DNA from: Luteitalea pratensis
GTDB lineage: Bacteria; Acidobacteriota; Vicinamibacteria; Vicinamibacterales; Vicinamibacteraceae
DNA: 64,000 bases
NCBI RefSeq assembly: GCF_001618865.1
Contig: NZ_CP015136.1
Span: 1,461,001-1,525,000 of the forward strand
Direction: 5' to 3'
The notes beneath the pieces are model-generated. The model made no database searches and was not told the DNA's origin. It saw only the letters and a program-made list of their open reading frames with translations. Shown here one piece after another: positions 6,417 through 57,820 of this stretch; position 1 is the first letter of the stretch; every line of letters starts with the position of its first letter. The translations under genes were made by a program, and so were the position numbers.

Positions 6417-6490
6417 GGCCGTCTGACGCGCCGAGGGACGTCCGCTGCGTTCCTCCGACACCTGAACCGTTTCCATTCCGGGCACCGTGA

Positions 6491-6595
6491 GCCATAAGCC
6501 ATAAGCCACAAGAGATGAGCCATTGGCCGCAGGCCGTAGCCCGCAGGCTGGAGGCTGGAGGCTGGAGGCTGGAGGCGTTAGGCGTCAAGCGTTGT
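6491..6595 (+). repeat. Heptanucleotide array, 15 in-phase units
   Basis: Read in strict 7-nt steps: GCCATAA twice, GCCACAA, GAGATGA, GCCATTG, GCCGCAG, GCCGTAG, CCCGCAG, GCTGGAG four times, GCGTTAG, GCGTCAA, GCGTTGT. Unit sequence drifts but the register is kept. The array ends 4 nt before the -10-like hexamer of the downstream gene. Confidence 0.85.
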
Positions 6596-6599
6596 TGTG

Positions 6600-6605
6600 T
6601 ACGAT
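6600..6605 (+). promoter_or_regulatory. -10-like hexamer TACGAT, 7 nt before ATG 6613
   Basis: TANNNT hexamer with no Shine-Dalgarno sequence between it and the ATG; consistent with a leaderless transcript. It decides the start at 6613 against an open extension to 6523, which is built from heptad repeats. Confidence 0.6.
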
Positions 6606-6612
6606 CCCCCGC

Positions 6613-7881: not shown

Positions 7882-8013
7882 GCGCCGACCTGAAGGTCGG
7901 CGCCTACACCCGGGAAGAAGGGCGGCGCCTACACCCGGGAGAAGGTCGGCGCTGACACCCGGGAGAAGGGCGGCGCCTACACCTGGGACGAAGGTCGGCG
8001 CCTACACCTGGGA
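7882..8013. repeat. Tandem repeat, five 24-nt units, next to a REP-like palindrome
   Basis: Units of the form GAAGGTCGGCGCCTACACCC + GGGA begin at 7892, 7917, 7941, 7965 and 7990, with one extra base after units 1 and 4. The first unit grows out of a REP palindrome (7882-7906). No spacers of constant length, so not a CRISPR array. Confidence 0.8.
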
Positions 8014-8020
8014 AGTGGAC

Positions 8021-8122
8021 GTAGCCGTCGACCTTCAGGTCGACGGACGCGGATCGCGGATCGCGAATCGGGGGCGCGATTCGGTCACCTGGTTGTCGTA
8101 GCCGTCGACCTTGGTCGACAGT
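8021..8122. repeat. Two family-3 REP-like palindromes
   Basis: GTAGCCGTCGACCTTCAGGT... at 8021-8046 and GTAGCCGTCGACCTTGGTCG... at 8098-8122, between the 24-nt tandem repeat and the 3' end of the M20 gene. The whole 350-base intergenic stretch 7780-8129 is essentially repeats. Confidence 0.7.
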
Positions 8123-10155: not shown

Positions 10156-10214
10156 GTAGCCGCCGACCTTCAGGTCGGCGGATCGCCCGCGTCGACCCGA
10201 AGGTCAACGCCTAC
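10156..10214. repeat. Two family-3 REP-like palindromes
   Basis: GTAGCCGCCGACCTTCAGGT... (10156-10181) followed by the inverted copy ending CAACGCCTAC (10189-10214): a head-to-head pair like a bacterial interspersed mosaic element, between the SGNH and amidohydrolase genes. Confidence 0.7.
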
Positions 10215-11668: not shown

Positions 11669-11694
11669 GCGTCGACCTGAAGGTCGACGCCTAC
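11669..11694. repeat. Family-3 REP-like palindrome
   Basis: GCGTCGACCTGAAGGTCGAC then GCCTAC, a near-perfect palindrome. It abuts the last heptad of the array that starts at the MFS stop codon. Confidence 0.7.
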
Positions 11695-17879: not shown

Positions 17880-17905
17880 GGCCGCGCCCCCTGGGGAACG
17901 CGGCC
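17880..17905. repeat. Hairpin after the hypothetical gene
   Basis: GGCCGCG and CGCGGCC arms with an inner CCCC/GGGG pairing; 11 nt after the stop codon. No T-run, so a weak candidate terminator at best. Confidence 0.4.
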
Positions 17906-17909
17906 ACCA

Positions 17910-17979
17910 CTTGAGGCTTGAGGCTTGACGCTTGAGGCTTGAGGCTTGAGGCTTCAGGTCTCAGGTCTCAGGTCTCAGG
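17910..17979. repeat. Heptad array, 10 units
   Basis: CTTGAGG twice, CTTGACG, CTTGAGG three times, CTTCAGG, TCTCAGG three times, all in one 7-nt register. Confidence 0.85.
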
Positions 17980-18026
17980 CAAGAAGGTCCGGCGAGCGGG
18001 CCTGCCAATCGAGAAGGCGGACGGAA

Positions 18027-28872: not shown

Positions 28873-29047
28873 GTCCCAAATCGACGAACGCCGAACGTCG
28901 AACGCCGAACGCTGAAGGTCAGCGCCTGACGCCTGCCTGAAACCTGATGCCTGATGCCGGCCCGATTCGCGACTCCCGACTCCCGACTCCCGATTCCCGA
29001 CTCCCGATTCCCGGTGCCCGGCTCCCGGTTCCCGGCTCCCGTCGCTA
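28873..29047 (-). repeat. Heptad array, exactly 25 units, from stop codon of copy 2 to the -10 hexamer of copy 1
   Basis: Minus strand from the TAG stop: TAGCGAC, GGGAGCC, GGGAACC, GGGAGCC, GGGCACC, GGGAATC, GGGAGTC, GGGAATC, GGGAGTC three times, GCGAATC, GGGCCGG, CATCAGG twice, TTTCAGG, CAGGCGT, CAGGCGC, TGACCTT, CAGCGTT, CGGCGTT, CGACGTT, CGGCGTT, CGTCGAT, TTGGGAC. Unit 25 is followed directly by TACAGT. Confidence 0.85.
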
Positions 29048-31366
29048 CGGCACAACCCTGAAGCCAGTCAGCGTCCGCACGGTACCGTCGGGGTGCACGA
29101 CGTCGACGCGGACGATGTAGGCGCCCGCGCCGAGCGGCACGAGCGAGAGGTCGGCTGTCGCCCACCCGATACCCGCGTCGTCGGGCGCGACGAGGGCAGT
29201 GGTGACCGGGATGGCCGCCATGACCTTGCCCGCCTGGTCGAGCAGTTCGGCCTTCACGCTCGTGGCTCCTGGCGCGAGGGGGACCTCCACGCGCACCTTC
29301 TCATTGCGGCGATAGCGCGGGTCAGCGGTTGGCACGAACTTCTGCCGCGTCAACGGACTGGCGCGCGAAAGGCGGGGCGAGGCGACCGGCGTGTCCGCGG
29401 CAGGCAGTGACAGCCGTGCCGAGTCGGTCAGCGGCAGCGTGGCGCCCGTGGGCGTGAGCCGGACACGCACGAGCAGGTCGCCGGCGGCCAATGGCGCATT
29501 CGTCGTGGCGAGTTCCGTCGTCGCCGTGCGTGCGCCCGGTGGCACGGGCAGTTCACCCTGCGCCACCGTGGCCCCGGCGCTCGTGGTCACCGTAACGGCC
29601 AGCGTGCCGCCTTGGGCAAGTGATGCGTCACCCAGCGCTGACGGATCGAGATCGGCCGTCACCCATATCCGTCCCGTCCGCGCCGCCGCGCCCGCGCCCG
29701 CGTGGAAGAAGTACGCCGCGCGGCTGCGCCATGGCTGCCCTTCGCGAATCCCGTTGACCGAACCCAGCGCGGCTGCCAACAGGCTGCTCTCCGCCGCCGC
29801 GGCCGACTCACCGGCACCCCCCGCCGCGTCTGTTCGTGCCGTCTCGGTGATGGCCGCCATGTCCTCGGCGCGCAATGCGCGATAGCCCTTGCGCGCCCGC
29901 ACCTCCGCGCCAGGACGTTTCACGCGCACCTTGATCGTGCGCCACTTGCCGTCGAGGCTCTCGTTGGCCGAGTAGTAGCCGAGCAGGTAGTACGAGGACA
30001 GGTCCTGGACGATGCGCGCCGCGCCAGCGTCGAGGTTGTTGGTGTTGATGATGGCGAGGCCGTCCGTGTTCTCGGCGAGCAGGCGCAGTGAGTCGAGGCG
30101 CACGTTGAGCGACGCGCGATCGCCCATCAGCGTGCCGGGCTGCGTGCCGGTCTCCTTGTTGTACCACTCGCCCCGATCGACCACCATCCGCTCGTCCCGG
30201 TCGCCCACGTTCGAATCGAAGGCGGCGAGGCCGCGGGTGTCGAAGGGATAGAACGACACGTTGTAGCGGTTGGCTTCCTGCGTCAGCGCGATGAACCGCT
30301 GCCGGTTGTTCAGCCTTGCGTACTTGGCAGCCGTCGTCGCGCACTCGATCGACGACATCGCCCCAGCGGACCCGCTCTGGGCGCGGCCCGTGTTGGTCGT
30401 AATCCGGCCGTCGGGGCCGGTGCCCGTGCCGCCCATGGACGGCGGAGCCGCGCACTCTTCGTGCCGGAGCAGGTCCTCCTTGGGCTCGAACATCTGGTAC
30501 CCGGTCGTGACGGTGATGAGTGCCTTGCGTTCTTCACGCACGCCGCCGAGATACCGGACCAGGCCCTCGAGCGCGTCCAGGACTTCGTTCTCGCGGCGCC
30601 GGCGAATCAACTGCGAGGCGATGCCCTTGTTGGCATTGCGGCTGGCGCCCGTACAGCCCGGCGGCGGCAGGCCCTCCGGAAAGCACATCTCCAGTTGCTG
30701 TTCTTCGGGGTGCTGTCGGATGATGCTGTCCTTCATACCCCATTGCGTCTGCTTCATGAGCATGTCGCTGATCGTCTCGGTGCGGCGTGCGAAGGTGATC
30801 TGCCGGGGGTCCATGTCGGGAGTCATGACCGCGAACAGGTCGTCCGGACCGATCAATCGCTCCAGCATGTTCACGAGCGGCCTGCGGGCGCGCACGGCCC
30901 CCCCGAAGTCGGTGTGCCACGTGTCGAGAAAAATCACGTACACGCGGCGCCGTGGATCGGCAGCCTGCCGGCGGCCATCGTCGGCGCTCACCGGGTCGCG
31001 CCGCTCCTCGCGTGCGGTCGTCGTCGAGAGCGCCACGCGTTCGAACTGCGTCACCTTCTGCGGCTTGTTGTCTTCGAGCACCTCGAAGTCGTCGGCCGTG
31101 AGGTCGGTGATCGGCTCGCCCCTGGCGTTGGTCGGATAGACGTCCACGCGCACGAAGTTGGCTTCCACCCGGAACGTTGGCTGTGCAGGTGTGGCCGGCT
31201 GCGACCCGTCTGCCGGTGCGGGCGCCGGTGTCTGCGACGCGGGTGCGGGCTGGCCTTGCTGGGCCTGCCCAGCCCGGCCATCGCCCTGCGCACGCATCGG
31301 CGCACGCGCGGGCGTGAGCAGCATCAGGACGGCAGCCGCAATGCCGAGCAGTGTGCGTGAACGCAT
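29045..31366 (-). CDS. VWFA-related Acidobacterial-type exported protein, copy 2
   Basis: 773 residues. Tandem paralogue of the preceding gene with long identical stretches throughout (for example TTAREERRDPVSA, LIRRRRENEVLDALEGLVR, SLRLLAENTDGLAIINTN against near-identical segments) and the same domain order: signal peptide, Pro-rich linker, VWFA-related domain with degenerate MIDAS (VIFLDTWHTDF), and C-terminal beta-rich region ending GFRVVP. Main differences are in the linker and in the 330-370 region. Same direction as copy 1, separated by a pure heptad array, and same TACAGT hexamer upstream. Most likely a fairly recent duplication. Confidence 0.85.
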   Translation of the reverse strand: MRSRTLLGIAAAVLMLLTPARAPMRAQGDGRAGQAQQGQPAPASQTPAPAPADGSQPATPAQPTFRVEANFVRVDVYPTNARGEPITDLTADDFEVLEDNKPQKVTQFERVALSTTTAREERRDPVSADDGRRQAADPRRRVYVIFLDTWHTDFGGAVRARRPLVNMLERLIGPDDLFAVMTPDMDPRQITFARRTETISDMLMKQTQWGMKDSIIRQHPEEQQLEMCFPEGLPPPGCTGASRNANKGIASQLIRRRRENEVLDALEGLVRYLGGVREERKALITVTTGYQMFEPKEDLLRHEECAAPPSMGGTGTGPDGRITTNTGRAQSGSAGAMSSIECATTAAKYARLNNRQRFIALTQEANRYNVSFYPFDTRGLAAFDSNVGDRDERMVVDRGEWYNKETGTQPGTLMGDRASLNVRLDSLRLLAENTDGLAIINTNNLDAGAARIVQDLSSYYLLGYYSANESLDGKWRTIKVRVKRPGAEVRARKGYRALRAEDMAAITETARTDAAGGAGESAAAAESSLLAAALGSVNGIREGQPWRSRAAYFFHAGAGAAARTGRIWVTADLDPSALGDASLAQGGTLAVTVTTSAGATVAQGELPVPPGARTATTELATTNAPLAAGDLLVRVRLTPTGATLPLTDSARLSLPAADTPVASPRLSRASPLTRQKFVPTADPRYRRNEKVRVEVPLAPGATSVKAELLDQAGKVMAAIPVTTALVAPDDAGIGWATADLSLVPLGAGAYIVRVDVVHPDGTVRTLTGFRVVP

Positions 31367-31372
31367 GGGGGA

Positions 31373-31378
31373 ACTGTA
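31373..31378 (-). promoter_or_regulatory. -10-like hexamer TACAGT, 6 nt before ATG 31366
   Basis: Identical hexamer and spacing to the paralogous gene. Confidence 0.6.
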
Positions 31379-31384
31379 GCTCCA

Positions 31385-31489
31385 AACGCTTGACGCTTGA
31401 CGCTTGACGCCTGACGCCTGACGCCTGATGCCTAACGCCGAAGGTCAAGGCCCAAGGGCCAAGGCTCAAGGGCAAGGGCCGTCTCAGGC
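31385..31489 (+). repeat. Heptad array, 15 units, between divergent promoters
   Basis: AACGCTT, GACGCTT twice, GACGCCT three times, GATGCCT, AACGCCG, AAGGTCA, AGGCCCA, AGGGCCA, AGGCTCA, AGGGCAA, GGGCCGT, CTCAGGC, in one register between the VWFA copy 2 and the metallo-hydrolase. Confidence 0.85.
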
Positions 31490-32393: not shown

Positions 32394-32488
32394 CGCCTAA
32401 CGCTTAACGCCCAACGCCCAACGCCTGAGGTCATGCGCAGGCGCCGGGCATCGGGAATCGGGAATCGGGAATCGGGAATCGAGGATCG
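32391..32488 (+). repeat. Heptad array, 14 units, anchored on stop codon 32391-32393
   Basis: TAACGCC (stop TAA), TAACGCT, TAACGCC, CAACGCC twice, TGAGGTC, ATGCGCA, GGCGCCG, GGCATCG, GGAATCG four times, AGGATCG. Confidence 0.85.
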
Positions 32489-32544
32489 AGTCCCTGCTCG
32501 GCGACCGCGTATGAAGTCCGGAATGAGTACGGGAGCCAAGGCGA

Positions 32545-36522: not shown

Positions 36523-36927
36523 GTGCCACCCTGGATCTCTAGCGACCAGTGCTATCTGCTCACGCTCTGCACGTTTCCACGCGGCGAGAATCATCTGTGC
36601 GTGCCTGCCGTCGCGATGCTGGTGACGCATTCGCTGGAGACGTACCAGCAACTCGGACGGTGGCGCCTGCACGTGCTGGTGCTCATGCCCGATCACCTGC
36701 ATTTTCTCGCGACGATACCGCCGTCCATGAACATCCAGAGGACCATCGTCGACCTCAAACGCTTCGTCGCATGTCGGAGCCAGGTGCGGTGGCAGCAGGA
36801 CTTCTTCGAGCATCGGCTTCGTATCGGCGAGCACTTCGAGGCCAAGCGGGCGTATCTACGCCAGAACCCCGTCCGCGCCGGCCTCGTCGCCAACCCGCAG
36901 GACTGGCAGTTCCTGTACGAGCGGTAG
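36523..36927 (+). mobile_element. REP-associated tyrosine transposase (RAYT, TnpA-REP; Y1 HUH family)
   Basis: 134 residues from a GTG. HUH motif in LMPDHLHFLATI (His-Leu-His) and the catalytic-tyrosine region KRAYLRQNPVRAGLV (the YxxxNPVRAGL signature) identify the family, related to IS200/IS605 transposases. RAYTs are single-copy domesticated transposases that act on REP hairpins. Matching REP-like elements stand on both sides: one copy 208 nt upstream, two inverted copies within 70 nt downstream. No terminal inverted repeats or target duplications of an ordinary insertion sequence are seen. Length is at the short end for the family, so the N-terminus is uncertain. Confidence 0.85.
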
Positions 36928-37053: not shown

Positions 37054-38490
37054 ATGTCGCGGCTTCCCCGAACGCTCTGTGTCGTTTGTCTCATCGCGCT
37101 GGTGACGGGCGGGTGCGCGTCGCGCACTGGCGGCGCGCCCGGCACCACAGCTCCGCCACCACAGGCGCCGCCCACCGGCGAGGCCGAGGCGTCGTTGCTC
37201 GAACGGCGCATCGCCGCGCACATGCGGTTCCTCGCCAGCGACGCCCTGAACGGACGCGGCAGCGGCACCCGCGACGAGTGGATCGCCGCGACCTACATCG
37301 GTGCGCAACTCGCCGCCCTGGGCGTCGAGCCGATGGGCGACGACGGCTGGTTCGTGCAGGAGGTGGGGGTACAACGCTTCAAGGCGGCGACGCCGCCGGT
37401 GCTGACGGCGGGCGATCGTACGTACACGCGCAACACCGCATTCCTGGTGGGCGCCGTGGCCGCCGCACGTGTCAGCGGCTCGCTGCAGCACTTCGTCGCC
37501 GGGACGCCGGTGTCGTCTGGCGCGGCCGTCATCCTGCCCGCGGACACGCCCATGACGGCGATGTCGTCGCTCAGCGGCGCCGCGCTGGTCCTGCGCAAGG
37601 CCACGGCGGCGCAGGCGGGCAATTGGGCGCAGCTCACGGCACAGGCGTCCGAATGGCTCTCCACGCAGGTCGTCGGCACGTTGCCCTCACCGCCATCCGG
37701 GCCGACCGTACTGACGCTCGACGCGGCGACACACGAGGCCATCATCGCCATGGCCGATGGCACGTCATTGCGATTGGACACCGAACTCGTCGCTGGCGAC
37801 CGGACCCGCACCTGGAACGTCGTCGGGCGCCTGACCGGCACCGATCCGTCGGCGTCGGCCGAGGCCGTGATTCTCTCGGCGCACCTCGATCACCTCGGGG
37901 TGCGTAGTGTCGGCGGCGATGTCAGCGACACCATCTACAACGGCGCCGACGACGACGCGTCGGGAGTGGTGGCAGTGATCGAACTCGCGCGGGTGCTGGC
38001 CGGTGGCCCGCGGCCGCGGCGGCCGGTGGTGTTCGCGTTGTTCGGAAGCGAGGAGAGTGGCGGCTTCGGCGCGCGGTACTTCGTCGATCGGCCGGTGGTG
38101 CCGCTCACCGACATCGTTGCCGACCTGCAGGTCGAGATGATCGGGCGCCCGGATCCGAAGGTGCCAGCGGGCACGCTCTGGCTGACCGGCTACGAGCGAT
38201 CGACGCTCGGCCCGCAGTTGGCCGCCAGGGGGGCACGGCTGGTCCAGGATCCGCACCCCGATCAGCGCTTTTTCGAGCGGTCCGACAATATCCGCTTCGC
38301 CCGTCGAGGCGTCGTCGCCCACACCGTGTCCAGCTTCGGGTTGCACGGCGAGTACCACCAGCCGTCGGACGAGTTCCGTCACGTCAACATTCCGCACATG
38401 CGGGACGCGATTGCATCGCTTGTGGAGCCGGTGCGATGGCTCGCGACGACGACCGAGAAGCCCAGCTGGATCGAAGGGAAGAAGCCGTAG
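37054..38490 (+). CDS. M28-family peptidase lipoprotein
   Basis: 478 residues. Lipobox in LCVVCLIALVTGGC (lipidated Cys ~22), then an M28 aminopeptidase-like domain: LSAHLDHLGV (zinc His), YNGADDDASGVVAVIELAR (bridging Asp), FGSEESGGFGA (catalytic Glu pair), and LHGEYHQPSDEFRHVN (last His). Probably anchored to the outer or inner membrane and degrades peptides in the periplasm. The TAG stop is the first base triplet of a heptad array. Confidence 0.88.
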   Translation: MSRLPRTLCVVCLIALVTGGCASRTGGAPGTTAPPPQAPPTGEAEASLLERRIAAHMRFLASDALNGRGSGTRDEWIAATYIGAQLAALGVEPMGDDGWFVQEVGVQRFKAATPPVLTAGDRTYTRNTAFLVGAVAAARVSGSLQHFVAGTPVSSGAAVILPADTPMTAMSSLSGAALVLRKATAAQAGNWAQLTAQASEWLSTQVVGTLPSPPSGPTVLTLDAATHEAIIAMADGTSLRLDTELVAGDRTRTWNVVGRLTGTDPSASAEAVILSAHLDHLGVRSVGGDVSDTIYNGADDDASGVVAVIELARVLAGGPRPRRPVVFALFGSEESGGFGARYFVDRPVVPLTDIVADLQVEMIGRPDPKVPAGTLWLTGYERSTLGPQLAARGARLVQDPHPDQRFFERSDNIRFARRGVVAHTVSSFGLHGEYHQPSDEFRHVNIPHMRDAIASLVEPVRWLATTTEKPSWIEGKKP

Positions 38491-38606
38491 CGCCTACAGC
38501 CTACGGCCTACGGCCTACGCCTCCAGTCTCAGGTCTCAGGTCTCAGGTCTCAGGTCTCAGGCATTGGGCATGAGGCATGACGTCAAGCGTTAAGCGTTAG
38601 TCGTTA
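38488..38606 (+). repeat. Intergenic region made entirely of 17 heptads, stop codon to stop codon
   Basis: TAGCGCC (stop of the M28 gene), TACAGCC, TACGGCC twice, TACGCCT, CCAGTCT, CAGGTCT four times, CAGGCAT, TGGGCAT, GAGGCAT, GACGTCA, AGCGTTA twice, GTCGTTA. The final TTA is the complement of the TAA stop of the convergent GH127 gene. 119 nt = 17 x 7 with no base left over. Confidence 0.9.
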
Positions 38607-41075
38607 CTGAACTGTCCACTCCTGAATCCCGGCCGAGAAGCCGGACTGCATCGTGATGTCGAGGCGGAGTGCTGTCGTTCGCACTGGCGAGAACGTGACG
38701 ACATTCGGACGGTCGCGCTCGGTGCGGTACTTCGACCTCCCCTGGACGGGACGCCACGAGTCGCCGTCCTTGTATTGGAGCGACCACGATGCGGGGACAC
38801 GGACTTCGCCGCGGCCTGTGTCGTCGAACCAGTAGACGGCGACGCGATCGACGGTTGCAACTTCCGGCAGCGCGTATTCCACCCACGCCGTCTCGCCCTT
38901 GCGCGGCCACCAATCGAAGTACGACGCAGGATCCGATGACGAGGCGGGCATTTCGCCGTCGTTGATGAAGCGCGGACTGCGGCGAGCCGGCGAGGTCGTC
39001 ACCGTGCTGCGCGTCGCGAGCGTCGGGAAGGGGCGCGGCCGCGCCGCATCTTCGACCGCCGCCAGCCACACCGCCATCGGCCCCGGGCCCCGGTTGGCCC
39101 ACGTCGCATACGGAATCAGTGTCATCACGCGCGTCGTGCGGACGATGGCGTCGTCCTTGTCGCGCGAGAGCGCAACCGCGGGGGCGGTCACCACCTGGAC
39201 GCCACCGAGCAGCGTCGGCCGGAACTCGCTGGCGAGCACCGCTTCGTCTGGCAACACGACGTTGCGCACGTCGCCGCCGTTGTCGGGCCACTCGGCCGCG
39301 TAGACGAGCGGGCCGCGCTGGACGGCAATGCGGCCGCGGTCGGCCGCCACCGACGGATGCGCCCGGATGCGACGAGCGGGCATCGGCAGAACCAGCGTGA
39401 CCGTGTCGCCGGGCGCCCACGCGCGTGACACGGTCGCGTAGCCCCGCTCGACCTCAATCGGCACCGGCACGCCGTTGACCGACAAGGACGCCGGCGGTGA
39501 AGCCGGGCCCGCGAAGCGATACAGGTCGCTCGGAACGGGCGCCTCGCGTGCCCATCCGGGGATGCGGAGGCGAAGTGGGAACGTGCGTGTCGTCTCGGGT
39601 GTCACGGTCAGCGTGACCAGACCGTCCCAGGGATAGCGGGTTTGTTGGCGCATCCGTACGCGGTGACCGGCGCCGCCGTCGATCGTCGCCGTGCCGGCGG
39701 CGTAGAGATTGACGTAGACGGCATCGCCCTGGTGTGCATAGACGTAACCGGGCAGTGACGCGAGAAACCGCGTGATGTTACCGGGACAGCACGCGACGCC
39801 GAACCACGGGCTGCGCTGGTGCTGTCCGGCCGACTCGAGCGGATTGGGATAGAAGTACGCCTTGCCGTCGAGCGCGACGCCGGAGAGCAGCGCGTTGTAC
39901 AACGTGCGTTCGAGCACGTCGATGTAACGGCCGTCGCCGTGCAGCAGGAACAGCCGATGGTTCCAGTAGTCCATGCCGACCGACGCGCACGTCTCGTTGT
40001 AGGCGGTCATGTTCGGCAGCTCGTACGGCTTGCCGAACGCCTCGCCGGCGCCGGTCGAGCCGATACCGCCGGTCAGGTACAACTTGCCGCCCACCGTGCT
40101 GGTCCAGATCTTCTCGAGCGCCTGCACGTACGCCACGTCGCCGGTCAGGGCGGCCACGTCGGCCATCCCTGCGTACATGTACATGGCGCGCACCGCGTGA
40201 CCCACCGGTTCGGTCTGTTCCACGGCGCGCACCTGCGCCTGGTTGTACTCGAGCCCGACGCCGTTGGTCTTCACTCCCGGGGTCGGCCCGCGCTCGTCGA
40301 TGAGGAACTTCGCCAGGGCCAGGTAGCGCTCGTTGCCGGTGACCCGGTAGAGGCGGACGAGCCCCATCTCGGTCACTTGGTGTCCAGGCCAGATCGACGC
40401 CCTGCCTGGTCCGAACGTGCGGTCGAGCAGATCAGCGGCGCGCAGGGCCACATCGAGCAGCGTCCGTTTGCCCGTGGATTGGTAGTGCGCAGCCGCCGCC
40501 TCGAACAGGTGTCCGAGGTCGTACAACTCGTGGCTGTCGTCGCGCTCGAACTCCCACCGGACCTTGCCGGCCCATGGATGCGGTGCCGCCGGATTGATCG
40601 TCCGTGTCGTGTAGAGATAGCCGTCGGGTTCCTGGGCCGCCGCGATCGTCGCAATCAACTGGTCGACGTAGGCGTCGAGCTTCGCATCCGGGTGCACGCT
40701 GAGGGCGTACGAGGCGCCCTCGATGACCTTGTACAGGTCAGAATCGTCAAACGGGTAGCCTGGTGCTTTCGTATCGGCGAGCGGCTCGCCCCTCAGCACC
40801 TGCGCCGCACGCCGGAAGTTGCCGACACGTCCGGTCAATTCGCATTGCTGGAGGGCCGTCGGAATCGAGGCCGTCCGGTTGGTCTCGATCCGCGGCGCCC
40901 AGAACGCGTCGTCCAGCGTCACGGCCGTGAACGGCACCGGTTGGACGGGGTAGTCGCGCGCGGGCGCTGCCTGAGCGGCAGCGACGTGTCCAGGGCGGGC
41001 AAGCAGTCCACGGCCTGCCGCGCCGGCAATCAGGACGACAGCGAGCAGGGCGAAGCGGCACGAGGACGCAGACAT
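38604..41075 (-). CDS. Exported glycoside hydrolase family 127-type enzyme (beta-L-arabinofuranosidase-like)
   Basis: 823 residues from ATG 41075 (GGAG 8 nt upstream). Signal peptide, then the (alpha/alpha)6 barrel with YNETCASVGM (E361, C363) and VACCPGNITR (C429, C430); these correspond to the zinc-binding Glu and three Cys of the characterised enzyme HypBA1, where the first Cys of the pair is the nucleophile. Two beta-sandwich domains follow, and the C-terminal ~150 residues look like an F5/8 (discoidin) carbohydrate-binding module. Likely releases L-arabinofuranose from plant glycans; other GH127 activities are possible. Confidence 0.88.
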   Translation of the reverse strand: MSASSCRFALLAVVLIAGAAGRGLLARPGHVAAAQAAPARDYPVQPVPFTAVTLDDAFWAPRIETNRTASIPTALQQCELTGRVGNFRRAAQVLRGEPLADTKAPGYPFDDSDLYKVIEGASYALSVHPDAKLDAYVDQLIATIAAAQEPDGYLYTTRTINPAAPHPWAGKVRWEFERDDSHELYDLGHLFEAAAAHYQSTGKRTLLDVALRAADLLDRTFGPGRASIWPGHQVTEMGLVRLYRVTGNERYLALAKFLIDERGPTPGVKTNGVGLEYNQAQVRAVEQTEPVGHAVRAMYMYAGMADVAALTGDVAYVQALEKIWTSTVGGKLYLTGGIGSTGAGEAFGKPYELPNMTAYNETCASVGMDYWNHRLFLLHGDGRYIDVLERTLYNALLSGVALDGKAYFYPNPLESAGQHQRSPWFGVACCPGNITRFLASLPGYVYAHQGDAVYVNLYAAGTATIDGGAGHRVRMRQQTRYPWDGLVTLTVTPETTRTFPLRLRIPGWAREAPVPSDLYRFAGPASPPASLSVNGVPVPIEVERGYATVSRAWAPGDTVTLVLPMPARRIRAHPSVAADRGRIAVQRGPLVYAAEWPDNGGDVRNVVLPDEAVLASEFRPTLLGGVQVVTAPAVALSRDKDDAIVRTTRVMTLIPYATWANRGPGPMAVWLAAVEDAARPRPFPTLATRSTVTTSPARRSPRFINDGEMPASSSDPASYFDWWPRKGETAWVEYALPEVATVDRVAVYWFDDTGRGEVRVPASWSLQYKDGDSWRPVQGRSKYRTERDRPNVVTFSPVRTTALRLDITMQSGFSAGIQEWTVQ

Positions 41076-41122
41076 CGGAACTCCAGTCGAGCCGCGGCGT
41101 GACCTCGCGGCGCCGTCATCAA

Positions 41123-41227
41123 TCGTAAGCCGTAAGCCCAAGCGTTGAGCGTAAGGCGTTGAGCGTCAGGCGTCAGGCATGAGGCATGAGGCATGAGGCA
41201 TGAGGCATCAGGCATCAAGCGTTACCC
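41123..41227 (+). repeat. Heptad array, 15 units, ending in the YggU promoter
   Basis: TCGTAAG, CCGTAAG, CCCAAGC, GTTGAGC, GTAAGGC, GTTGAGC, GTCAGGC twice, ATGAGGC four times, ATCAGGC, ATCAAGC, GTTACCC. The last unit overlaps the -10-like hexamer TACCCT. Confidence 0.85.
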
Positions 41228-41228
41228 T
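41223..41228 (+). promoter_or_regulatory. -10-like hexamer TACCCT, 7 nt before ATG 41236
   Basis: TANNNT directly at the end of the heptad array; leaderless arrangement. Confidence 0.5.
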
Positions 41229-41235
41229 GTACGCG

Positions 41236-41529
41236 ATGATCGAGGAGACTGCCGACGGCATCGTGCTGGCGGTCCGCGTGATTCCGCGGGCCGGCCGGTC
41301 CGGGCTCGCGGGGACCCGCGACGACGCCGTGGTGGTGCGTCTTGGCGCGTCGCCTGTGGATGGTGCGGCCAATGCCGAGCTCGTTGTCGTACTCGCGGCA
41401 GCCTTCGGCGTGGCTCGTCGGGACATTGCGATCGTGTCCGGCGATCGTTCCCGCCACAAACGCGTGCGCATGAGAGGCATCGATGCCGCCGCCGCCGCGG
41501 CGGTGATCGCGGCCGCGCCACAGGGATAA
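41236..41529 (+). CDS. DUF167/YggU-family protein
   Basis: 97 residues. Family signature: VRVIPRAGRSGLAG near the N-terminus, VVRLGASPVDGAANAELV and VSGDRSRHKRVRM. Small cytoplasmic protein of unknown biochemical role, often next to unrelated genes. The TonB receptor starts 7 nt after its stop, and that receptor's -10-like hexamer overlaps this stop codon. Confidence 0.9.
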   Translation: MIEETADGIVLAVRVIPRAGRSGLAGTRDDAVVVRLGASPVDGAANAELVVVLAAAFGVARRDIAIVSGDRSRHKRVRMRGIDAAAAAAVIAAAPQG

Positions 41530-47958: not shown

Positions 47959-48004
47959 GCGAGGTTCAGCTTCGCAAGCCCTCGCCTACGGCAGGGGGTA
48001 ATGC
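47940..48004. repeat. Long perfect hairpin over the stop codon of the bactofilin/RDD gene
   Basis: Arms 47940-47964 and 47980-48004 are exact reverse complements over 25 bp (GCATTACCCCCTGCCGTAGG continuing CGAGG), with a 15-nt loop. The left arm encodes the last codons (HYPLP) and TAG stop. No T-run follows; could terminate, stabilise the mRNA 3' end or be a duplicated REP-like element. Confidence 0.85.
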
Positions 48005-48045
48005 CGGAATGCCGGGAATGCCGGAATGTCGGGAATGCTGGGAAT
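48003..48045 (+). repeat. GCCGGAAT-type 8/9-nt repeat array
   Basis: GCCGGAAT, GCCGGGAAT, GCCGGAAT, GTCGGGAAT, GCTGGGAAT in tandem, beginning at the foot of the hairpin. Confidence 0.75.
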
Positions 48046-48060
48046 GGAGAAGGCTGGAGC

Positions 48061-49477: not shown

Positions 49478-49629
49478 AATTTCAGAATTGCAGAATTTCA
49501 GAATTTCACCGCTAACGGCATGATTCGCCCCTCAGCATGCTCCCTGAGCCTCGAGCCCTCAGCTTCGAGTCGTTCCAATATGGCGGTGTCCCTGAAATTC
49601 CTGAAATTCCTGAAATTGTGAAATTGTAG
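49478..49629. repeat. AT-rich island with inverted 8/9-nt repeats
   Basis: AATTTCAGAATTGCAGAATT... (49478-49508) is complementary in pattern to CCTGAAATTCCTGAAATTCC... (49591-49629), so the two halves could pair around a ~80-base loop. Distinctly less G+C-rich than all surroundings; directly upstream of the large peptidase gene. Confidence 0.7.
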
Positions 49630-53101: not shown

Positions 53102-53142
53102 CGGGCCTCATTTGGCATCGCGGCATTCTCGGCATCCCGGCA

Positions 53143-53165
53143 TTCCGGGCGCTCCGCGCCCGGAA
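53143..53165. repeat. 10-bp perfect hairpin upstream of the NtrC gene
   Basis: TTCCGGGCGC-TCC-GCGCCCGGAA, ending 5 nt before the -10-like TATACT. Could be an operator or a terminator of the preceding transcript. Confidence 0.5.
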
Positions 53166-57792: not shown

Positions 57793-57820
57793 CCGGCATT
57801 CCCGGCATTCCCGGCATTCC
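57793..57820. repeat. GGCATTCCC 9-nt repeat, three units
   Basis: CCGGCATTC-type nonamers in tandem just after the phosphatase gene; complement of the GCCGGAAT family. Confidence 0.7.

Follow-up and report, generated by a model that had tools for sequence, protein, structure and literature searches.

The 119 bases that run from stop codon to stop codon between an M28 peptidase gene and a convergent GH127 gene of the soil bacterium Luteitalea pratensis (38488-38606) form a heptanucleotide tandem-repeat array that is non-coding, a 'long simple sequence repeat' (LSSR) built of two arms that point inward from the two genes. Such arrays occur throughout the intergenic DNA that we sampled, their unit families are oriented relative to the nearest gene, and a subset begins in phase on a stop codon. 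Positions refer to the window, the whole 64,000-nucleotide stretch that was analysed (contig NZ_CP015136.1, 1,461,001 to 1,525,000).

The array is bounded on the left by the M28 gene (37054-38490, plus strand; start uncertain, open frame from 36931), which stops on TAG at 38488-38490, and on the right by the GH127 beta-L-arabinofuranosidase gene (38604-41075, minus strand), which stops on TAA at 38604-38606; both genes were assigned by Pfam. Heptads 1-10 (38488-38557) form the left arm and read TAGCGCC TACAGCC TACGGCC TACGGCC TACGCCT CCAGTCT and four times CAGGTCT on the plus strand. The four perfect CAGGTCT units occupy 38530-38557 and were detected by TRF as 38526-38561. Heptads 11-17 (38558-38606) read CAGGCAT TGGGCAT GAGGCAT GACGTCA AGCGTTA AGCGTTA GTCGTTA on the plus strand and form the right arm, which on the minus strand is TAACGAC TAACGCT TAACGCT TGACGTC ATGCCTC ATGCCCA ATGCCTG, with the GH127 stop as the first triplet of its phase-locked TRACGNN heptads.

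A sequence-only reading had divided these 119 bases into 17 heptads with like neighbours, and this division was correct. The lag-7 identity was 0.77 (0.63 at lag 14 and 0.53 at lag 21), while 10,000 first-order Markov resamples gave a lag-7 mean of 0.257 (sd 0.04) and a maximum of 0.455; the array is thus a run of tandem 7-nt units longer than chance, as LSSRs are. The product 17 x 7 = 119 depends on including both stop codons; without them, 113 nt (38491-38603) are strictly intergenic. Some arrays may be misassembled; the focal array itself is short.

The survey covered 1.26 Mb (about one sixth) of the complete 7,480,314-base chromosome; from the sister genome, G001, 0.4 Mb were included. Genes were called with a home-made hexamer model (1086 in the own genome and 309 in the sister, starts approximate), and arrays were counted by a scan for local periodicity with a fixed threshold. 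At period 7, 104 intergenic arrays were found in 1.26 Mb and none in shuffled sequence, while periods from 4 to 20 other than multiples of 7 gave 0-7 intergenic arrays each; periods 14 and 21 follow as multiples. Array density was 693 per Mb in intergenic and 5.4 per Mb in coding DNA, the mainly non-coding location that characterizes LSSRs. Lag-7 identity was 0.308 in intergenic and 0.265 in coding DNA, with intergenic lags 14 and 21 raised likewise, and no lag-7 excess was found in the coding DNA of the 1.26-Mb sample. The lag-7 check proposed with the sequence-only reading, carried out on all sampled sequence, therefore revealed an excess that is genome-wide and restricted to intergenic DNA.

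An array was present in 133 of the 701 larger intergenic regions (19%). By spacer type, the frequency of arrays was 20% in convergent, 16% in divergent and 14% in tandem spacers. Divergent spacers, which hold no stop codon, carry arrays as often as tandem ones, so that the arrays are not a 3'-end effect. Array ends lay within 5 nt of a gene edge in 38-43% of cases, against 20% for random placement. The strand composition of the arrays with respect to transcription showed no significant bias.

The sliding of unit sequence from one heptad to the next, noticed at the focal array, is real and general. In arrays of at least 84 nt, identity to the first through ninth neighbour fell from 0.755 through 0.679, 0.601, 0.534, 0.486, 0.464, 0.430 and 0.423 to 0.399, and out-of-phase identity in the same arrays was 0.27-0.30. 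Such a smooth decay is what stepwise duplication of single 7-nt units together with point mutation would give. Three tandem CAGGTCT copies with at most one mismatch were found at 254 overlapping match positions genome-wide, and a reversed-pattern control gave 0. Units were shared between loci in 69 families with 197 incidences, the top family occurring in 15 arrays, against a null with a mean of 168 families and a maximum of 7 arrays for one family. The order of families was rarely common to loci, with five groups sharing an aperiodic 24-mer among 163 array clusters, and whole-array copying between loci was rejected on this ground. Since families are shared and their mosaics are not, there are two possibilities: some heptamers amplify readily, or individual units are copied from one locus to another.

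Almost all of the common families prefer one orientation relative to the nearest gene. The words TAACGCC, ATGCCTC, CAGGTCT, GGGTACC, GGAGGAC, GGGAATC, GGGAGTC and CGGCCTT all read away from it, and TRACGYY arrays lie at the 5' spacer edge in the same orientation both at stop codons and at the starts of opposite-strand genes. For families present in 5 or more spacers, the majority orientation accounted for 509 of 646 occurrences, while random flipping of whole spacers gave 400.6 +/- 8.4 with a maximum of 432. Orientation at stop edges predicted that at start edges in 73% of cases (binomial p 5e-18, the occurrences not being fully independent), and the orientation learned in the own genome predicted that in the sister in 68% (p 4e-5, the two genomes not being mutually independent). 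These percentages count families within spacers, which the permutation respects and the binomial tests respect only in part. The polarity test was conceived after the data had been seen, so the sister and cross-edge checks carry most weight.

The units of the focal array follow the rule in both arms when the focal spacer is held out. Elsewhere, reading away from the nearest edge prevails over the opposite by 8:2, 13:2 and 16:4 spacers for the left-arm families ACAGCCT, ACGGCCT and ACCTGAG, respectively, and by 14:3, 9:0 and 14:4 spacers for the right-arm families AACGCTT, AGGCATG and AGGCATC in right-arm orientation. By these orientations the focal array consists of two inward-pointing arms that meet near 38557/38558, where CAGGTCT yields to CAGGCAT.

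The relation to stop codons is narrower than the sequence-only reading had proposed. An exact 7-fold spacer length fails as a rule, with lengths mod 7 scattered genome-wide: 33 heptad-filled spacers gave mod-7 counts of 5, 10, 3, 2, 6, 2 and 5 (chi-square worked by hand, p about 0.12), and the 6 of 701 spacers that were at least 90% heptad had length residues of 4, 4, 0, 6, 1 and 0. When all 609 gene ends that have a spacer were averaged, similarity at lag 7 was at baseline on the stop codon positions and rose from the first base past the stop, which indicates that most arrays merely end at the coding boundary. The claim that both stops belong to the end heptads holds at the focal spacer when the stops are counted in the 119 bases, but most ends elsewhere are unlocked (66 of 81 array-adjacent gene ends in the own genome and 16 of 25 in the sister). 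What survives of the proposed locking is a phase-locked subset that includes the GH127 side, with 15 of 81 and 9 of 25 gene ends, respectively.

In arrays that touch a gene end, stop triplets at offsets +7, +14 and +21 numbered 15, 12 and 13 in the own genome and 9, 8 and 7 in the sister, while other offsets had 0-3. Within the first full period, 15 of 19 stop triplets were in phase in the own genome (p 4.6e-10) and 9 of 16 in the sister (p 1e-4). The locked units begin on the T of the stop, and are mainly TRACGC(C/T) in the own genome and mainly TRACGT(T/C) in the sister. For TRACGYY arrays the starting point is stop offset 0, and the bases upstream of the stop show no match. TAA was used by 10 of the 15 locked ends of the own genome against 92 of 752 (12%) other gene ends (p 2e-6), and TAG by 0 of the 24 locked ends of both genomes. 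At the focal locus the locked GH127 end reads TAA CGAC TAA CGCT TAA CGCT TGA CGTC.

The same locus was compared in relatives. In the sister genome G001 the convergent M28/GH127 pair is kept and the proteins end at equivalent codons, but both genes stop on TGA, where the own genome has TAG and TAA, and TGACGTT, GAACGCC and TGAGCCC heptads fill the spacer. In G004, a third species, GAATGC and GGGTGAA heptads come right after the M28 stop and a DUF167 gene lies next, with no GH127 between; no heptads follow the M28 stop in G002, G003 and G015. From one species to another, array content is thus replaced and the coding ends are kept. Automatic pairing yielded 14 orthologous spacer pairs, 0 of which had an array in both (p 0.25, too few), and it missed the M28/GH127 spacer, which has arrays in both species; one alignment showed an array cleanly inserted in the sister. 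Arrays of CAGGTCT, abundant in this genome, are almost missing from congeners; the nearest relatives have few or none of this unit and carry heptads of their own. A CRGGNNT scaffold repeated 3.5 times (25 nt) was found in 63 of 297 genomes of the phylum, scattered over families. The richest were G087 and G098, which belong to the same family in another class of the phylum (8 Mb each), with more than 700 and more than 1500 CRGGNNT matches, mostly CAGGGTT. In the samples of G005, G025 and G035, period-8 arrays possibly prevail over period-7 intergenic arrays, as judged from a handful of arrays.

Other lag-7 arrays lie in the window at 6476-6611, 17886-18003 (CTTGAGG and CAGGTCT units), 28892-29058 (CCCGACT/CCCGATT units), 31360-31483 (ACGCCTG units) and 32398-32518. 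At the opposite end of GH127, before a DUF167/YggU gene, a second heptad array of GGCATGA/GCGTTGA units occupies 41121-41256. The window also contains repeats of other kinds. Four near-identical REP-like palindromes GCGTCGACCT-GA-AGGTCGACGC were found at 11669-11690, 8025-8046, 7882-7903 and 10189-10210 (expected 0), some of which adjoin heptad arrays, and similar GCGTCGAGC palindromes adjoin arrays elsewhere in the genome. A 25-nt unit GAAGGTCGGCGCCTACACCCGGGAA, repeated five times at 7892-8015, overlaps one of the four. A short gene immediately upstream of the M28 gene (36523-36927, plus strand) has a weak Y1_Tnp (IS200-like) match of the RAYT type. Arrays of period 8-9 (AATGCCGGG / CCGGCATTC, at 48000-48046, 57793-57820 and 53114-53150) make up a separate minor class of intergenic repeats; at 49478-49508 and 49591-49625, 8-9 nt arrays AATTTCAG / CCTGAAATT form an inverted pair, to which AATTTGAA arrays after stop codons in the sister genome are related.

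We consider it probable that the arrays result from slippage and drift, with arms bounded by coding sequence. Slippage by 7 nt while DNA is synthesized would add and remove units, and point mutations arising between duplications would make the units drift along the array. The arms would start at or reach the gene edge, where purifying selection on the coding sequence would halt them. With units that have TAA or TGA followed by CG, the array may take in the stop codon itself, because gain or loss of such units still leaves a stop. We think that the arrays are mostly tolerated and not selected; a role in gene expression is possible. Simple slippage leaves three things unaccounted for, namely the recurrence of families at many loci, the differences in families between sister species and the fixed orientation of families to the gene edge, and the cause of this strand polarity is the weakest part of the account.

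The polarity, together with array starts placed exactly on TRACG stop contexts, speaks for a putative step that is directional or guided by microhomology. Growth by insertion only would not predict array ends that abut genes. A directional process, which we regard as an outside candidate, would have arrays extend towards the gene in an orientation set by their sequence, halt at its edge and sometimes take over a stop of the type TAA or TGA followed by CG. If this were true, the spacers of such genomes would consist of two opposed arms, each reading away from its own gene.

The rival that survives best, and which we entertain with reserve as rather unlikely, is ectopic copying, in which arrays would pass from one locus to another through gene conversion or template switching at microhomologies, TRACG (stop plus CG) would be the microhomology that places the first unit on the stop, and one family would then amplify in one lineage. 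It agrees with the families common to unrelated loci, with the abundance of CAGGTCT here and its near absence in congeners, with the start of TRACGYY at stop offset 0, with the different locked units of the two species and with the excess of TAA among locked stops. It fits poorly with the family order, which is almost never common to loci; a donor-acceptor pair was not identified, and polarity at start-codon edges is not covered by ectopic copying alone.

That the arrays are a selected gene-exit element, which any RNA polymerase would encounter on its way out of a gene and which would act as a terminator, a stability element or an all-frame stop, seems improbable to us. The fixed orientation away from genes at both ends would suit such an element, as would the stop triplets at +7, +14 and +21, which give stops in all three frames, and the focal array, on its plus strand, has a somewhat better fold than shuffled sequence (z -2.4); its minus strand, however, reaches only -0.8. 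Neither a GC stem followed by a T run nor any other terminator-like site was found, and Rfam gave no match; terminator function or 3'-end specificity was rejected on the absence of such a site and on the similar frequencies in the three spacer types. Several top families contain no stop triplet, by which a universal all-frame-stop function was rejected. Families vary in base composition and G-tracts, and only 38 of 121 arrays are quadruplex-capable, the focal array being negative on both strands, so that a G-quadruplex was also rejected as the unifying property. Four fifths of the larger spacers, moreover, are without an array, and presence did not coincide in the 14 orthologous spacers.

A mismatch-repair defect of the lineage with heptads as its by-product is very hard to credit: tandem repeats are generally known to be unstable without MutS, but MutS is intact here (E 4e-85), which excludes its loss as the cause, and genomes without a strong MutS match were not clearly richer in heptads (an estimated 28% or so versus 21%). 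A chance pattern in a single GC-rich spacer is refuted, and we give it next to no weight, by the focal lag-7 identity far above the shuffled maximum together with the genome-wide excess.

Heptanucleotides have been noted since 2007 as a favoured long bacterial repeat, and their origin is without explanation. Family-specific polarity at gene edges and the TAA/TGA phase lock constrain any model of this origin; both regularities are open to tests on genomes already available and in passaging experiments. The spacers of such genomes turn over fast between species, and heptad tracts in them should not be taken as conserved regulatory sites.

The arrays are best filed with the known heptanucleotide LSSRs, as a multi-family, gene-edge-polar variant. 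As summarized in two later papers, in most genomes no long-unit class is more abundant than heptanucleotides, which are scattered across phyla, and polymerase slippage with a 7-nt contact was suggested for them (Mrazek et al. 2007, via PMC4679880, PMC4692102). The heptanucleotide period is common to LSSRs and the present arrays; the latter differ in that a genome holds many families, neighbouring units drift strongly and each family has a fixed orientation. STRR heptamers of heterocystous cyanobacteria (Calothrix, Nostoc) are tandem 7-nt units in intergenic DNA. They comprise few defined sequences, and PMC4692102 reports neither polarity nor stop-codon phase for them. REP/BIME palindromes with RAYT transposases are also dispersed and intergenic, and REP-type palindromes lie beside some arrays only; they are palindromic single units, whereas the heptads are direct repeats in period-7 tandem arrays, and a RAYT-mobilised REP element was rejected since the repeated unit is not a dispersed palindrome.

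TAACTGA repeats of Beggiatoaceae, cyanobacteria and Bacteroidetes contain stop triplets in all three frames, and some sets overlap a stop codon (PMC4679880). Unlike the present arrays, they have one fixed sequence and lie mostly just upstream of start codons. The GGGNATC and GGGGA(C/T)T repeats of Xanthomonas and Nostoc are intergenic with period 7 (Rehm et al. 2015, PMC4692102), and arrays between the same genes differ in length and sequence in related species (PMC4692102). GGGAATC, the Xanthomonas heptad, is one family here (32445-32490, within the array at 32398-32518). The Xanthomonas and Nostoc repeats are a single G-quadruplex family, whereas most families here are not quadruplex-capable; divergent spacers are not depleted here, and a TRACGYY family begins on the stop codon. 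GGGNATC repeats lie nearly always nearer to the 5' neighbouring gene in any gene direction, and some overlap stop codons (PMC4692102). Our arrays likewise lie near the 5' neighbouring gene whatever the gene direction, and from this shared placement the polarity rule is probably wider than this genus. No known mechanism accounts for the polarity at gene edges or for the start on stop codons. Tandem 7-base repeats of bacteria are already known; those described here are, in addition, directed away from the closest gene, and some begin exactly on its stop codon.
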